A stretch of DNA of 36,313 bases from positions 1-36,313 of the IMG/VR virus record IMGVR_UViG_3300032116_008492; one strand, 5' to 3'. The notes beneath the pieces are model-generated. The model had not been told where the DNA came from, ran no database searches, and was given only the letters and a program-made list of their open reading frames with translations. This DNA is from a virus. How positions within the stretch are numbered: position 1 is the stretch's first letter; each line of letters opens with the position of its first letter. Shown one piece after another: positions 5,538 through 15,411 of the stretch. A program made the translations under genes and the position numbers.

Positions 5538-6062
5538 ATGATATTAGAGTCAAGTCCGTTAACGTTGAGGGGTAGTTGTTCAGATGACCTGCTTATAAGT
5601 AAGCTGCATCTTGCAAGAGAACTTAAACGACTCAAATACGATCGTCATGATAAGATCTACAACTTGGGCAGTTGGTATGGTAATATAGGACCAGCGTTGG
5701 TTAATCAGGGAATCAAGTTTAATCAACTATTAAACGTGGACATAGATCCCGGGGTTGTTGATGATGCAGCTCGAGTAGCAGATCATTTTGATATAACACA
5801 TTTAGTAAAGCATCTAACTGGTGATGCTAATAAGTTGAACTATAAAAATCCAAGTCTGATAATCAATACCAGTTGCAACAACATTGAGGGCAGTAATTGG
5901 TTTGATCGTATACCTAAAGGCACCCTGGTAGCACTACAAACAAGAGATATGCCTGATTTTAAAACGCTGTTTCCATTAAGTGAGACCATGCATTTTAGTA
6001 GAATGCACCTTAAAGACCCAGAAGAACGATATACACGACTGACCTGGATAGGAATAAAATAA
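5538..6062 (+). CDS. SAM-dependent methyltransferase-like protein
   Basis: A 174-residue protein with a Rossmann-type methyltransferase pattern: LGSWYGNIG near residue 42 as motif I, LLNVDIDP near 66 as the acidic end of beta-2, GDANKLNY near 97, and LIINTSCNNIEGSNWFDRIPKG near 107-127 as the beta-4 region. It resembles a class of methyltransferase-like proteins common in T4-like marine phages. The catalytic base and target are not evident. It starts 5 bp after the preceding gene and is the last gene before the terminator at 6066. Confidence 0.7.
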   Translation: MILESSPLTLRGSCSDDLLISKLHLARELKRLKYDRHDKIYNLGSWYGNIGPALVNQGIKFNQLLNVDIDPGVVDDAARVADHFDITHLVKHLTGDANKLNYKNPSLIINTSCNNIEGSNWFDRIPKGTLVALQTRDMPDFKTLFPLSETMHFSRMHLKDPEERYTRLTWIGIK

Positions 6063-6091: not shown

Positions 6092-6122
6092 ATATTATAA
6101 TGGCTCTATGAGCGATATATTA

Positions 6123-6419
6123 TTATTTTTTTGTATTCTGATTAACGAATGCGTAAAATTTTTCAGCAGCTTCAAGAACCTTCTCAACTCCTGGTACTGT
6201 TGGCATTTCTACCTTGGTAATAACTTCCTGACCTTCTTTGCTAACGCTAGTGCTAAATGCACCCCAATTAGCATGATAGTCATTCCATACTTGGCTCTGT
6301 GCCATTTCTAGCATTTGAGCACGGATCTCGTATCCATTCTTATTGAAACTAACTTGTGGAACAAACTGTTTCATTTTGTCAGCTGCTTCTGTAAATTGTT
6401 TTGTAAATTGTTCTGTCAT
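6123..6419 (-). CDS. Phasin-like small helical protein
   Basis: Ninety-eight residues, almost entirely amphipathic helix, with segments TEAADKMKQFVPQ, EIRAQMLEMAQSQVW and PGVEKVLEAAEKFYAFVNQ. Helix pattern, length and composition are those of the phasin family, which coats polyhydroxyalkanoate granules in proteobacteria, or of small phasin-like chaperones. The AGGAG box lies 5 nt before ATG. It is encoded opposite to all neighbours, has its own probable sigma70 promoter (6473-6501) and 5' hairpin, and ends at the shared terminator. It looks host-derived. Family assignment is by pattern only; the function in infection is unknown. Confidence 0.65.
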   Translation of the reverse strand: MTEQFTKQFTEAADKMKQFVPQVSFNKNGYEIRAQMLEMAQSQVWNDYHANWGAFSTSVSKEGQEVITKVEMPTVPGVEKVLEAAEKFYAFVNQNTKK

Positions 6420-6450
6420 AATATTCTCCTATGTGTATGTGTATGACTAT

Positions 6451-6465
6451 CAGCAACCTTTGCTG
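6451..6465 (-). promoter_or_regulatory. 5'-terminal hairpin of the phasin-like mRNA
   Basis: CAGCAA / TTGCTG forms a 6-bp stem with a 3-nt loop. It sits directly at the transcription start predicted from the promoter at 6473-6501, where a 5'-terminal stem commonly protects mRNA from decay. Confidence 0.5.
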
Positions 6466-6472
6466 ATGTAAT

Positions 6473-6501
6473 ATTATATATCTTTTTTAGATATAAAGCA
6501 A
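6473..6501 (-). promoter_or_regulatory. Sigma70 promoter for the phasin-like gene
   Basis: On the minus strand TTGCTT, a 17-bp spacer and TATAAT (plus-strand ATTATA at 6473-6478) form a near-consensus promoter. The predicted start is near 6466, about 45 nt before ATG at 6419. Confidence 0.6.
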
Positions 6502-6528
6502 TAATTTGTGGCAATATTAAAGAAGATT

Positions 6529-6627
6529 TCAGTAATAATGTCTAGATGATTGACTTTGGCGATATTCAGCGATGACTTCTGCCCAACTGATCAATCCTTC
6601 GTAGATAGTGTTAATAATTTTTTTCAT
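6529..6627 (-). CDS. Small 32-residue protein MKKIINTIYEG...
   Basis: A 32-residue minus-strand frame starting at 6627, with core WAEVIAEYRQ and an end rich in Ser, Arg, His and Tyr (SRHYY). An AGGAAGGA ribosome-binding site lies just upstream, inside the end of the preceding gene. Its ATG overlaps the TGA of that gene (ATGA), which argues for coupled translation and a real gene. It resembles short proteins with a WAE-x-x-x-EYR core in proteobacteria, but I cannot name a family firmly. It ends about 110 bp before the phasin-like start. Confidence 0.6.
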   Translation of the reverse strand: MKKIINTIYEGLISWAEVIAEYRQSQSSRHYY

Positions 6628-6800
6628 AGGTATCCTTCCTTTTGGGAGTTAAATTGTCGGATGTAGTTTTCCAACTGTGCGGCATCGGTAATGCCTTTGG
6701 TGTTTAGATATGCATCTAAACGGCTTTGGTAACTAGAACCTGGGAACATTTCGGATAGACGTTCCATGATCCTAATCATTTGCTCTGATAGATATTTCAT
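6624..6800 (-). CDS. DUF3563-like 58-residue protein
   Basis: A 58-residue frame, MKYLSEQMIRIMERLSEMFP at the start, then YQSRLDAYLNTKGITDAAQLENYIRQF. The second half (R-x-x-AYL-x(5)-D-x-x-x-LE-x-x-I/R) is close to the DUF3563 pattern of small Burkholderiales and other proteobacterial proteins. An AGGA box lies 7 nt before ATG (6798-6800). The stop overlaps the start of the 32-residue gene downstream. Both small genes and the phasin-like gene lie on the minus strand within a plus-strand genome, consistent with a host-derived accessory cassette. Family assignment is from memory of the pattern. Confidence 0.6.
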   Translation of the reverse strand: MKYLSEQMIRIMERLSEMFPGSSYQSRLDAYLNTKGITDAAQLENYIRQFNSQKEGYL

Positions 6801-6852
6801 GTTATAATCCTAGTGTAAGTGTGTATAGAAACATATCATGGTTTCTACTGAG

Positions 6853-6859
6853 TATTTAT
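6853..6859 (-). promoter_or_regulatory. Possible late promoter for the minus-strand cluster
   Basis: On the minus strand this reads ATAAATA, the late-promoter core, about 52 nt upstream of ATG 6800. No convincing sigma70 promoter was found for these small genes, so this is the best candidate. It could be chance in AT-rich DNA. Confidence 0.3.
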
Positions 6860-6907
6860 GTTCTAGTAAATTAAGTACTAGGAAAAGTTATAAGCAAAGT
6901 AAAAACG

Positions 6908-6914
6908 GTAAATA
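6908..6914 (+). promoter_or_regulatory. Possible late promoter GTAAATA
   Basis: GTAAATA lies 22 nt before ATG 6937 with an AAGGAAG ribosome-binding site in between, matching the layout of the stronger late promoters nearby. The G in the first position is less typical. Confidence 0.4.
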
Positions 6915-6936
6915 TACAAAAGGAAGTGTCGCTAAG

Positions 6937-7197
6937 ATGAAAAAGAGCACAAGATCAATACTGCAAGAACTCAGCGAGATGGGCGTAAATCGTAATAAGG
7001 ATTTAGTCATCGAGAGCCGAGGATCAAACCTCATCGAAAGTGCTATCAATCTACTCAGTTTGATAAAAGAAAACTACGACATTGAAACCGCGGCAGAACT
7101 AGAGCGCAGATTTATTAACGCTATACGCACAGCAGAGCCTGCTAAATTCAAACGCGGCATTAAAAAGATACAGGAATCAAGAGATGATACTCAATGA
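6937..7197 (+). CDS. Hypothetical conserved small phage protein
   Basis: The start at 6937 is preferred over an in-frame ATG at 6838 because an AAGGAAG ribosome-binding site and a late-type promoter lie between them. The extra N-terminus (K/S/T-rich, 33 residues) looks non-coding. The 86-residue product, MKKSTRSILQELSEMGVNRN, has a central LIESAINLLSLIKENYDIETAAELERRFINAI helical region typical of a small conserved protein of marine T4-like phages. No function is known to me. It overlaps the nucleotidyltransferase-like gene by 14 bp and probably feeds the same late operon. Confidence 0.65.
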   Translation: MKKSTRSILQELSEMGVNRNKDLVIESRGSNLIESAINLLSLIKENYDIETAAELERRFINAIRTAEPAKFKRGIKKIQESRDDTQ

Positions 7198-8308
7198 AGG
7201 AGGCAACGTATTTGCCAATGCAGAACCATTTGATCACAAAGATGTTCCGTCAATACTAAAAACAATTAACAGTGCCCTACAAGGTACAGGAATTGAAGCT
7301 ATTCCTGTAGGTTCTGCAGCAACTCCTCGTCCTGGACAACAAAGCGGCGATATGGATGTTATTGTAGATGAGAAAACAGTATTAGACTTTTTCAAAGCTA
7401 AAGATGCTAAAAGTGCTCGAAAAGCTCTAAATGACTATATCACCGGTAAAGGTTTAGAAACAGCGCAAAGCGGCATTAATGTACACGTTAATGTGCCAGT
7501 AGGTGATCAGCATCATCAAGTTGATATTATGGTAACCGGTAATGCTCCTCGTGTAGCAAAGTTTCATACACACGACATACCGCAAGGCAGTCCGTACAAG
7601 GGTGTTAACAAACAATTGATGCTGTCTATACTGGCTAAGCAAAAAGGCTACATGTGGTCAGCTTGGCAAGGACTGTTTGATCGTACTCCAGAAGGTAAAA
7701 AAGGTAACTTTGTATCTGATGATTTAGATGAGATTGCAAAAGTACTAATGGGACCGCAGGCTAATTCTTCAAATTTAAGCAGTGTAGAAGGTATCATGAA
7801 AGGGCTTCCTGATGATCAAGCAGCAGCATTGTTAGATCGTGCTCGTCAAGATCCTAACTGGGTAGAAAAGAAACCAGCAGAAAGTATGAACACTGAATCT
7901 ATCAATCGAATGAAAAAGTTAGCAGGCATGAAAGAAGCAGATGTAGTTAGTCCTCGCTTTGCAGGTGTACAACAAACTAAACATGCCGACGGTAGTCAAA
8001 CTACAGACTATCAACAAGGTCCTTTGCAAACTACTAACAAGGTAGATGCTCAAGGACGCCCTATTACATCTAAATCAAAATATGATTTAGGTGTAGGTAC
8101 TGTAGATACAGAGTTAGATCATGCATCGGGTATTAGATCAAATGCTGTTACTGCACGTGGCGGAATGGATCCTAACAAACTAGCACCTACAGCAGACATT
8201 GCCGCGGCTCGAGGTGTTGATCCTAAAAAGTTTTCTAGATTTCAAAAGCAAAACACAGCAGCAACTGAAGCACTAGATGCTATGTTAACTATTGCGAGAC
8301 TAAGATGA
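7184..8308 (+). CDS. Pol-beta-type nucleotidyltransferase-like protein
   Basis: The 374-residue protein has the signature of the pol-beta/nucleotidyltransferase fold: a G-S pair in PVGSAATPRPGQQSGDMDVIVD (residues about 41-62) with the D-x-D metal pair, and a third acidic residue in HHQVDIMV near residue 111. The fold would transfer a nucleotide to RNA, DNA, protein or a small molecule. The C-terminal 150 residues are low-complexity and Gln/Asp/Thr-rich. The N-terminus MILNEGG carries an L-x-E-G site like those cut by the T4 prohead protease gp21. Downstream come a K/R-rich protein and a ligase-like adenylyltransferase, all translationally coupled, suggesting a packaged nucleic-acid processing set. 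The substrate is unknown. Confidence 0.7.
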   Translation: MILNEGGNVFANAEPFDHKDVPSILKTINSALQGTGIEAIPVGSAATPRPGQQSGDMDVIVDEKTVLDFFKAKDAKSARKALNDYITGKGLETAQSGINVHVNVPVGDQHHQVDIMVTGNAPRVAKFHTHDIPQGSPYKGVNKQLMLSILAKQKGYMWSAWQGLFDRTPEGKKGNFVSDDLDEIAKVLMGPQANSSNLSSVEGIMKGLPDDQAAALLDRARQDPNWVEKKPAESMNTESINRMKKLAGMKEADVVSPRFAGVQQTKHADGSQTTDYQQGPLQTTNKVDAQGRPITSKSKYDLGVGTVDTELDHASGIRSNAVTARGGMDPNKLAPTADIAAARGVDPKKFSRFQKQNTAATEALDAMLTIARLR

Positions 8309-13437: not shown

Positions 13438-14358
13438 ATGCAAATCAGAGATTTATCTAACAAGATTACAAGCGAAAAGTTAAACGAAAGTCTAGCTAAA
13501 AAGTTTGGATACCGTCTATCACTAGACAAGTTTTCAGAAGGCCAACTAGCTGAGGCAAATCGTCAACTATCCACAAAAGTTTATGAGTTTGAAAAAACAA
13601 ACGACTTTAACAGCGTACTAGAAAATCACGATTATCAAAAGAATCGTGCTATGCTAGATGTTGTTCGTCAAGCTATCAAAGAACGTACTCTTTCAGATGA
13701 TGAAAAGTCTAAGAAAGAAAAGTATGTTAAAGGCATGAAAAAAACCAGCGGCGAATTTAAAAAGCGTTATGGCGAAAAAGGCGAAGAAGTCATGCACGCC
13801 ACAGCTACTAAAATGGCTAAGAAAGAATCTGTCGAAGAGGCAATGGAAGTGTTGCGCGGTGTATTAAGCGAGCGCACATTGACAGAAGGCGAAGAAGAAA
13901 AGGCAGCATTGATCATGTCTTCAAGAGACATGGTAGATAAAATTACTGGATGGTTGGAAGACGTTTCCAGTATGAAAACAGAAACAATGTTAGATCTAAT
14001 TGACTCTATAAGAGACGAACTAGGCAGCGATGTTGCAGAACAGTTCTCGAGCACTGTTAAGCCAGCATTAGACGATTTATATGCAAACTTAGAAGGCCAT
14101 AGAACTACAATGGCACAGGCAGTTAGCATTCTAACAGGCGAAGAAGGTCCAGGCGCTGGCGCAGCATCTGCAATGGGAGACATGGGCGGGGCTGAAATGC
14201 CTGCTACTATGGGTGCTCCAGATGCAGAAATGGGCGGAGATGAATTTGCAGCTAGTGAACCTGCAACAGGCGGAGAAGCTCCTGCAGGTCGAATGAAGCG
14301 TGAAAGCATTGAATACAGCCGCAAACTAGGCACTATCCTAAGCTCAAAAAAAAAGTAA
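13438..14358 (+). CDS. Scaffold/internal head-type virion protein, zero-frame product
   Basis: The 306-residue zero-frame product resembles a conserved marine T4-like virion protein. The start, MQIRDLSNKITSEKLNESLAK, is followed by KFGYRLSLDKFSEGQL. A Lys-rich KYVKGMKKTSGEFKKRYGEKG, then EEVMHATATKMAKKE, module found in several phage internal proteins lies near residues 98-128. The middle is helical and acidic. Residues about 235-290 are a Met/Gly/Ala/Glu-rich flexible linker. The frame ends SSKKK-stop at an A9 run, with a slippery heptamer and hairpin; the -1 frame stays open for another 110 codons (see 14350-14687). A shorter and a longer product are both expected. Confidence 0.75.
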   Translation: MQIRDLSNKITSEKLNESLAKKFGYRLSLDKFSEGQLAEANRQLSTKVYEFEKTNDFNSVLENHDYQKNRAMLDVVRQAIKERTLSDDEKSKKEKYVKGMKKTSGEFKKRYGEKGEEVMHATATKMAKKESVEEAMEVLRGVLSERTLTEGEEEKAALIMSSRDMVDKITGWLEDVSSMKTETMLDLIDSIRDELGSDVAEQFSSTVKPALDDLYANLEGHRTTMAQAVSILTGEEGPGAGAASAMGDMGGAEMPATMGAPDAEMGGDEFAASEPATGGEAPAGRMKRESIEYSRKLGTILSSKKK

Positions 14359-14387
14359 ATGAAGATGCGGATACACTTATCCGCATC
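14346..14387 (+). promoter_or_regulatory. Programmed -1 frameshift signal (A AAA AAG plus hairpin)
   Basis: An A9-G run at 14346-14355 contains A AAA AAG in the correct phase (AAA 14350, AAG 14353), the heptamer used by E. coli dnaX. The zero-frame TAA follows at 14356. Eight nt after the heptamer begins a perfect 10-bp stem (GATGCGGATA 14364-14373, TATCCGCATC 14378-14387) with a CACT loop. Heptamer, spacing and stem are the standard -1 signal. The T-poor tract after the stem makes a terminator less likely. The open -1 frame downstream is the strongest support. Confidence 0.75.
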
Positions 14388-14687
14388 CTTTCTAATCTAA
14401 AAGGCAGAGCTGATAGCAAAGGGGCTAGCGGAACATTTAGTTGGTCTGCTATCAGCAGTATGTTACAAAACGTAGGCGGCCAAGAATTGGACTACGATGC
14501 TTTTAAAGCAGCCTTTGACAGCAATCCATCGTTTCAAAACTTAGTTGATAAGTTTGATGCTGACGGTGTAACAATCAAAACTAAAAATCAAGCCCAACCT
14601 CCCGGAGTGCCAGGTGATAAAGCCAAAAGCCAAGCTAATGTAATTAGCAGTGCAAAAAAAGCAGCAGCAAAGGCATTGAACAAATAA
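14350..14687 (+). CDS. C-terminal frameshift extension of the scaffold/internal head protein
   Basis: Entered by -1 slippage at 14350-14355, the frame reads KKVNEDADTLIRILSNLKGR, then a Gly/Ser linker and FSWSAISSMLQNVGGQELDYDAFKAAFD, and ends KKAAAKALNK at 14687. It adds about 110 residues, giving a fusion of about 416. No good ribosome-binding site precedes the only internal ATG (14460), and the 34 coding-like codons upstream of it argue against an independent 75-residue gene. The helical domain followed by a basic Ala/Lys tail resembles C-terminal domains I recall from related cyanophage proteins. An assembly error is the main alternative explanation. Confidence 0.7.
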
Positions 14688-14724: not shown

Positions 14725-15411
14725 ATGTCACTTTTAATCAACAAATTTAATTACGAAAAACTCTCTAGGGACGAGTCCACTGGCAAGCGTTTATATGCTA
14801 CGCCAGATGGGCATAAAGTCCCTAGTGTCACGACTATACTGGACAAAACTAAACCAGAAGAAAGTCGTATAGCATTAGCCAATTGGCGCAAAGCAGTTGG
14901 CGAAGCTAAAGCACAAGCTATTACTACAGAAGCAGCTAATCGCGGCACACGAATGCACAAGTTCTTAGAAGACTATGTCAAAGGTGAGCCGATGAATGAA
15001 AGCATTACTAATCCATTTGCACAGCAAAGTCAGAAAATGGCTAAGATTGTAATTGCACAAGGGCTGTGTAATGTAAGCGAAGTATGGGGCAGTGAAGTAC
15101 CCTTATACTTTCCAGAACTATATGCGGGAACTACTGACTGTGTAGGTGTGCATAACGGTGACGAAAGCATCCTGGACTTTAAACAGACTAACAAGCCCAA
15201 GAAGCGTGAGCACATCGACGATTACTTTATTCAGCTAACTGCTTATGCTATGGCTCACAACGAAGTACACAAAACTAACATTCGCAAGGGTGTTATTCTA
15301 ATGTGTTCAAAAGACTACGAATATCAAGAGTTTATCCTAGAACCAGCAGATTTTGACTACTGGACTGAACGCTGGTGCAAGCGTGTGGAAGAATACTACC
15401 GCCTAAACTGA
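14725..15411 (+). CDS. PD-(D/E)XK exonuclease, MGME1/RecB-like
   Basis: The 228-residue protein has the RecB/MGME1-type nuclease order: a His-containing helix HKFLEDYVKGE near residue 78, then GTTDCVGVHNGDESILDFKQT (residues about 136-156) with the D and D-x-K catalytic signature, then YFIQLTAYAMAH with the Q-x-x-x-Y of this clade. The N-terminal VPSVTTIL strand and WRKAVGEAKA are typical of the phage family. It should degrade or process single-stranded DNA ends in replication or recombination. It has its own sigma70 promoter with almost no leader, so it is probably early, unlike its late neighbours. Confidence 0.8.
   Translation: MSLLINKFNYEKLSRDESTGKRLYATPDGHKVPSVTTILDKTKPEESRIALANWRKAVGEAKAQAITTEAANRGTRMHKFLEDYVKGEPMNESITNPFAQQSQKMAKIVIAQGLCNVSEVWGSEVPLYFPELYAGTTDCVGVHNGDESILDFKQTNKPKKREHIDDYFIQLTAYAMAHNEVHKTNIRKGVILMCSKDYEYQEFILEPADFDYWTERWCKRVEEYYRLN

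Follow-up and report, generated by a model that had tools for sequence, protein, structure and literature searches.

The frameshift site of E. coli dnaX consists of the heptamer A_AAA_AAG and a downstream stem, together with a Shine-Dalgarno-like sequence that precedes the slip by about 10 nt, and its frameshift product is shorter than the standard product. The dnaX stem-loop is named in a reference of PMC4066793, excerpts of which place ribosomal stimulators generally 5-8 nt downstream. Among phages, the capsid proteins of T7/T3 (gene 10), Lactobacillus phage A2 and Listeria phages A118/A500 carry frameshift extensions (excerpts of PMC5009743). Frameshifting of the tail chaperones is described in the same excerpts as widely conserved, with T4 as an exception (PMC5009743). 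The locus described here appears to hold a site for programmed -1 recoding in a family of virion genes where none was found described, as literature searches of open-licence papers returned no earlier description of the slip site.

The window, by which is meant the whole stretch of DNA analysed, is an IMG/VR record of 36,313 bases (IMGVR_UViG_3300032116_008492) that is classed as linear and is possibly a fragment. A zero-frame coding sequence on its plus strand (13438-14358) specifies a helical protein of 306 aa that matches phrog_14154, for which an AF2 model was made, and whose C-terminus is S-S-K-K-K-stop. An A9 homopolymer (14346-14354, plus strand) contains two overlapping in-phase slippery heptamers and is followed by G 14355. 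The slippery heptamer A_AAA_AAG (14349-14355, plus strand) is in zero-frame phase, with AAA and AAG as the P- and A-site codons, and the zero-frame stop TAA (14356-14358, plus strand) lies immediately 3' of it, so that the preliminary description, which had placed TAA 14356 right after an in-phase A_AAA_AAG, is correct base for base. The -1 frame extension (14355-14687, plus strand) is open for 110 codons from 14355 to 14684 and closes with a stop at 14685-14687; it had been described as open to 14687, as it is, and the two forms of 306 and 416 residues that had been predicted are of the right sizes, the fusion having 306+110 = 416 aa. The claim of a full dnaX-type layout did not hold, because the Shine-Dalgarno-like element is absent upstream of the slip: none was seen by eye in the window, where 14330-14345 reads gcactatcctaagctc. 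Scans of the window for tRNAs and Rfam families gave no matches.

On the 3' side of the slip site, a spacer of 8 nt (TAAATGAA) leads into a putative stimulatory hairpin (14364-14387, plus strand) with a 10-bp stem, in which GATGCGGATA (14364-14373) pairs with TATCCGCATC (14378-14387) around the 4-nt loop CACT. That this stem is perfect and begins 8 nt past the slip had been noted from the letters, and both complementarity and folding agree; the segment 14346-14400 folds at -15.3 kcal/mol (z -5.7), which 0 of 200 shuffles equalled. The 8-nt spacing falls within the range of about 5-8 nt, and the structure is a candidate stimulator. The stem covaries in the window's clade, from which 34 of 55 loci were kept after dropping those more than 95% identical. 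Across these 34 sequences pairing holds in 90.5% of cells over the ten stem pairs, with two-sided changes at 8 of the 10. None of 500 shuffles reached the observed covariation score or the observed numbers of paired cells and two-sided pairs, and the number of pair types was above that in 496 of them; the pair that closes the loop is not formed in 20 of the 34. The 32 sequences of a second clade have a different hairpin, in which 75.7% of cells are paired and 6 of 14 pairs have two-sided changes. Its covariation score exceeded all 500 shuffles, but its count of two-sided pairs exceeded no more than 463 of them, and a shift of the structure by one column raised that count to 8; the stem begins about 11-23 nt from the slip, beyond the usual distance. 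When 114 of 120 non-redundant loci were folded, with a wrong A-run used in a few rows, z was below -1.5 in 60% of them, and many marine members were without a simple hairpin.

Relatives were collected from viral contigs in scans with the window protein (best 80 of 183 relatives), with an alignment of 48 members (best 80 of at least 503) and with two distant members (best 80 of 512 and best 80 of at least 483). This gave 269 places, the window and 268 IMG/VR loci, which are samples only; many are near-identical, and some contigs are entered twice, such as L079/L202, L121/L122 and L140/L211. L080, the 5' end of which is cut, was left out of counts after the first scan, L082-L087, mostly repeat contigs, were left out as well, and L118 and L166 were left out of the 120-member non-redundant sets. 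All 80 loci of the first scan show the arrangement of zero frame, slip site and -1 frame. With an extension profile, the C-terminal domain was found beside the zero frame in each of the 269 places; it lies in the -1 frame in 260, in frame 0 in 5 and in +1 in 4. Most of the -1 places (256 of 260) have a run of eight to ten A in the overlap (A9 in 217, A10 in 32, A8 in 7), and L266 has a bare A_AAA_AAG with no longer run. The preliminary description had proposed a search of homologues for slippery sites and -1 extensions, and the outcome supports the frameshift reading: 257 of the 269 places have the site, with the extension in -1 and without an own start like that of the separate-ATG group (L222 is uncounted), and the -1 extension itself is present in 260 of 269. 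No place among the 269 has an unbroken single frame.

A run of nine A is prone to error, and it could be supposed that a sequencing or assembly error in the homopolymer has split one continuous ORF. The chance of this is negligible, given that contigs from many metagenomes share the arrangement despite their divergence and that the unbroken frame it calls for occurs in 0 of 269 places. An assembly error is also rejected on the grounds that L002, L003 and L080 have the same junction as the window, and that the C-terminal domain is present in 269 of 269 places, 260 times in -1.

Two loci depart from the common pattern in other ways. L118 has an A11 run before position 5972 and its extension in +1, which requires a shift of +1 or -2; the A11 may be a real variant, an assembly error or a slippage-tolerant site. 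L275 has, at 6094-7295, a second copy of the 3' part of the gene with an A10 slip site and then a second copy of the extension; the ORF concerned has matches to the nuclease as well as to this gene, and either a duplication or faulty assembly could account for it.

Selection on the extension was gauged from 30 close pairs, in which each sequence was used once and some pairs share a lineage. The -1 frame has a dN/dS of 0.107, with substitutions by codon position of 213/106/686, and 1.66 is obtained when the zero frame of this extension DNA is used instead. These values indicate that the -1 frame is under purifying selection. A run of at least eight A within 30 nt of the stop is found in 111 of 120 members versus 3 of 1197 other ORFs, and of these 3 one is the second gene copy in L275. 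The control ORFs were those with an ATG start and at least 100 aa on the same strand of the same loci (260,535 codons in all). In 1.26 Mb of coding strand there are 118 runs of nine or more A, of which 3 lie inside control ORFs.

The long A-run has been lost in 11 places (L219, L221, L222, L223, L226, L246, L250, L263, L264, L270 and L272), and each of these has an ATG for the domain 8-16 nt past the first base of the stop. Of 8 distinct junctions compared, most have an AAGG-, AGGA- or GGA-type element 5' of the ATG, which is weak in L223. L222, L263 and L272 have their own ATG though the extension is in -1, and L263 and L272 are without a slip site. Homologues with an unbroken single frame and no slip site had been named in the preliminary description as evidence that would speak against a frameshift; homologues lacking a slip site are found in 10 places, to which L222 with only A6G may be added, and they have a stop and a separate start, never an unbroken frame, which fits recoding. 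The pairing of long A-run loss with start-codon gain supports reading the junction as a recoding site. L222 (5940-5970) has the appearance of an intermediate, since it combines an in-phase A6G heptamer with an AGGA-ATG start for the extension.

In a quick tree of 124 rows, which was rooted on named phages by assumption and has a long outgroup branch, there are 3 changes between the separate and frameshift modes versus 11.6 with shuffled labels, and the well-supported branches alone require only 1. This fits an ancestry in which two adjacent genes came under a frameshift once and twice returned to being separate genes.

The 11 of 269 uncultured places with their own ATG, and the four named relatives in which the similar small neighbour has its own gene, raise the possibility that the extension is an independent downstream gene in all members, translated by its own initiation or by stop-start coupling. 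An ATG does occur by codon 12 of the -1 ORF in 18 of 112 non-redundant frameshift loci, in 6 of them as a TAATG overlap. Nevertheless, 80 of the 112 have no ATG, GTG or TTG through codon 12, and the first such codon in the -1 ORF of the window is an ATG at codon 36, within the folded domain. An independent gene, which would also leave the conserved slip site and hairpin unexplained, is therefore very unlikely.

Because the slip site is conserved, the hairpin covaries, the -1 frame is selected and the loci without the long run carry an ATG, programmed recoding is strongly supported by comparative sequence evidence. The preliminary description had called the site a programmed -1 frameshift, and of that claim the recoding stands and the ribosomal mechanism is only likely, as an A9 run also suits transcriptional slippage. 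Ribosomal frameshifting by -1 is nonetheless the probable mechanism. Most ribosomes would read 13438-14358 and stop at the TAA to give the 306-aa helical virion protein. A minority, delayed by the hairpin 8 nt downstream, would slip one base back on A_AAA_AAG, bypass the stop in the -1 frame and add the 110-aa winged-helix-like domain to form the 416-aa fusion. Two proteins would be made from one start, with an N-terminal part common to the 306- and 416-aa forms, and the most likely purpose would be to equip a small and constant share of the virion protein with an extra domain that is anchored through this common part. We infer the ribosomal shift, its efficiency, the incorporation of the fusion and the importance of the ratio.

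The main rival, which is less likely than a ribosomal shift and on the whole improbable, is transcriptional slippage, in which the polymerase would add an A (or drop two) on the A9-A10 run so that some mRNAs encode the fusion in one frame. The preference for A9-A10, seen in 249 of the 257 places with a slip site (9 in 217 and 10 in 32), exceeds the need of ribosomal slipping and suits transcriptional slippage. Runs of nine or more A are nearly absent elsewhere (3 in 260,535 codons of other ORFs), the A11 of L118 with its extension in +1 would be easily served by indel-type slippage, and a clear hairpin is missing from some members. Set against these points are L266, which has only A6G, and the 7 places with A8. 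The run in A_AAA_AAG is shorter than polymerase slippage usually needs. Downstream covarying hairpins, present in two clades, have no known role in transcriptional slippage; the hairpins that aid RNA polymerase slippage sit in RNA already made (PMC5009743, Figure 18 legend, in excerpt), and so a hairpin 3' of the run is not expected to do so. The A6G member and the hairpins thus favour the ribosome, and the A9-A10 preference and the A11 run favour transcriptional slippage, or both may act together.

With ribosomal frameshifting retained as the preferred reading, the nature of the two protein parts can be considered. The zero-frame protein has a conserved helical core (residues 147-242; 13876-14163, plus strand) that gives the match to phrog_14154 and is common to Rak2-like jumbo phages. 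This family, annotated 'virion structural protein', is matched by 110 of 120 members at E <= 0.01. In mass spectrometry of CBB virions, the homologue CBB_298 was detected with 10 unique peptides (35.81% coverage) and its neighbour CBB_299 with 2 peptides (20.00% coverage), as given in the excerpted Table 4 of PMC5259590, and both are therefore particle-associated in a cultured relative that encodes them separately. The excerpts on Atu_ph07 (PMC6102473) and RaK2 (PMC3622015) do not name the proteins of the pair. A virion-structural role is supported by the phrog_14154 matches and by the CBB data on homologue and neighbour. The T4 scaffold and internal core genes (gp22, gp67 and gp68) are located in the gp20-gp21-gp22-gp23 head cluster. 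The preliminary description had proposed a scaffold or internal head protein, and this is not supported as such, the gene being 130-228 kb from gp23 by contig coordinates on five large contigs (the distance in G005 could be about 42 kb if that contig is circular). The gene product was also considered as the major capsid protein and rejected, since each of the 5 large contigs encodes gp23 in a gene of its own and the zero-frame model is helical.

The AF2 model of the zero-frame protein (mean pLDDT 80, pTM 0.46) is mainly helical. Its Gly/Ala/Met-rich linker, at about residues 238-287, is of low confidence, and a last short conserved helix (289-302) precedes SSKKK. The model of the extension has a mean pLDDT of 76 overall and a pTM of 0.61. 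Its residues 1-80 are modelled with confidence as helix, strand, helix, two helices and a strand pair, which is a winged-helix-like order, and residues 81-110 form a basic tail of low confidence. According to these models, the fusion would carry the extension domain on a flexible arm. A sequence search of the PDB gave no match to the zero-frame protein and only chance-level matches to the extension. Fold comparison of the extension brings up winged-helix domains of a generic kind (best Z 6.9, at 2.7 A across 70 residues), with no Foldseek match at E < 0.001. The fold matches of the zero-frame protein in the PDB resemble common helical bundles (Z up to 10.1), and its model matches 9 viral models at E <= 0.001, none of which has a named function. 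Any function of the extension domain is one that we infer.

The phages that carry the site can be placed from five large contigs, of 259-383 kb, that belong to the family; each encodes a T4-type major capsid protein (PF07068) and portal (PF07230), and they hence come from jumbo T4-like phages. The window is assigned to this group by kinship, at 80% identity to L005. The genes after the junction in the window are a PD-(D/E)XK exonuclease (phrog_298; 14725-15411, plus strand) and then a tail-spike-like gene. The G/GT genes of the lambda type directly precede that for the tape measure; no tape measure was found among the families of 18 other window proteins, which make up part of its ORFs. An 864-aa ORF at 36-2630 matches glycosyltransferase families and has an FkbM methyltransferase domain. 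On the minus strand, opposite the gene, there is a 188-aa antisense ORF (13767-14333); similar ORFs lie opposite the gene in relatives and are probably a by-product of codon use.

Named relatives of the zero-frame protein were reached by profiles and missed by plain tblastn. The zero-frame profile matched AUZ94856 of Atu_ph07 (3e-15), CBB_298 (9e-14), GAP32_293 (5e-13), NVP2275O_025 of Vibrio 2.275.O (1.5e-10) and RaK2 ORF135 (7e-8), and hhalign gave an E of 1.4e-11 between the protein and its Rak2-like homologues. RaK2, CBB, GAP32 and Vibrio 2.275.O have the gene order of the window: behind the homologue comes a small protein (111-118 aa), and behind that the exonuclease, a conserved neighbour that adjoins the pair. 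The exonuclease was recognised in RaK2 and CBB by matching phrog_298, in Vibrio 2.275.O by its annotation and in GAP32 by its position. The small neighbour aligns with the extension by hhalign at E 1.6e-4 (probability 51%, 91 of 117 columns; the control gave 0.28), and as single sequences at E 0.007 and 0.004. Foldseek matches of the extension to A0A2I7S9L4 (E 0.28) and A0A345MN64 (E 0.63) are weak, and their accessions are near those matched by the zero-frame model, A0A2I7S9N4 (E 9e-6) and A0A345MN63 (E 7e-4). The extension profile gave no match at E <= 1 in three named jumbo phages, and in Atu_ph07 the small neighbour AUZ94855 does not match the extension and the exonuclease is not adjacent. 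These comparisons point to a clear kinship with the Rak2-like pair for the first protein and, from synteny, the modest hhalign result and weak Foldseek matches, to a moderately supported one for the second. In RaK2 (L302, 3000-3040), ORF135 has six A before its stop, and ORF136 follows 8 nt further on, with its own ATG and in -1 relative to ORF135, which may be chance or a relic.

Plain tblastn of named phages found short common motifs only, mostly in cyanophages, with none in the conserved core, and for the extension a single chance-level match. Residues of about 92-159 (13711-13914 of the window) include a motif of the type KKxSGxFKKRYGxxGEEVMxATATKMAKK that is common to otherwise unrelated cyanophage proteins; some of the proteins with the KKxSGxFKKRYG-like motif are annotated as virion protein or cytidyltransferase. 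PHROG 14154 and the zero-frame profile found nothing in two cyanophage genomes, and 94 pattern matches in prokaryote genomes yielded no relative.

These results suggest a new gene family among the phage virion proteins that are apparently made in two lengths by frameshifting, hosted by uncultured giant T4-like phages that are represented by hundreds of contigs from lakes and the sea. Gene callers that look for ORFs with an ATG would miss or shorten the extension, so a second virion protein has likely been overlooked. The separate genes in 11 places indicate that tethering is not indispensable, and the natural switches between fused and separate forms offer a ready comparison for asking why phages set protein ratios by frameshifting. 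As a tentative extrapolation that is less likely than not, a whole clade of T4-like jumbo phages might have placed two once-separate virion genes under one start and a frameshift, with the ribosome setting the ratio of short to extended protein and so a small, counted number of winged-helix domains per particle. If that were true, a ratio device like that of gpG/gpGT would serve a permanent part of the virion in a type of phage thought to be free of frameshifting. The title of a 2022 paper on the chaperones of T4-like phages reportedly points to another mechanism.

Compared with dnaX, the window has the same A_AAA_AAG heptamer and a downstream stem, but it is without the upstream Shine-Dalgarno-like element, has A9 instead of A6G, and its frameshift product is longer than the standard one. 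The pairs CBB_298/299, RaK2 ORF135/136, GAP32_293/294 and NVP2275O_025/026 resemble it in having a homologous first protein, a small second protein of similar layout and an exonuclease or a stand-in gene, but they are two genes separated by a gap of 3-12 nt, with no run of eight or more A at the junction. Like lambda gpG/gpGT, the locus would yield a short protein and a minority -1 fusion with the N-terminal part in common (excerpts of PMC5009743). The lambda chaperones, however, leave the assembly (PMC5009743), whereas the window's relatives CBB_298 and CBB_299 are in the virion (excerpts of PMC5259590), and judged by these relatives the locus does not fit a lambda-type chaperone, which would be absent from the finished virion. 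The phage capsid extensions are alike in that one start gives a short virion protein and a C-terminally extended form through a shift near the stop (excerpts of PMC5009743). They differ in that theirs are capsid or coat proteins, often with an Ig-like extra domain, whereas the window would join a helical non-capsid protein to a winged-helix-like domain.
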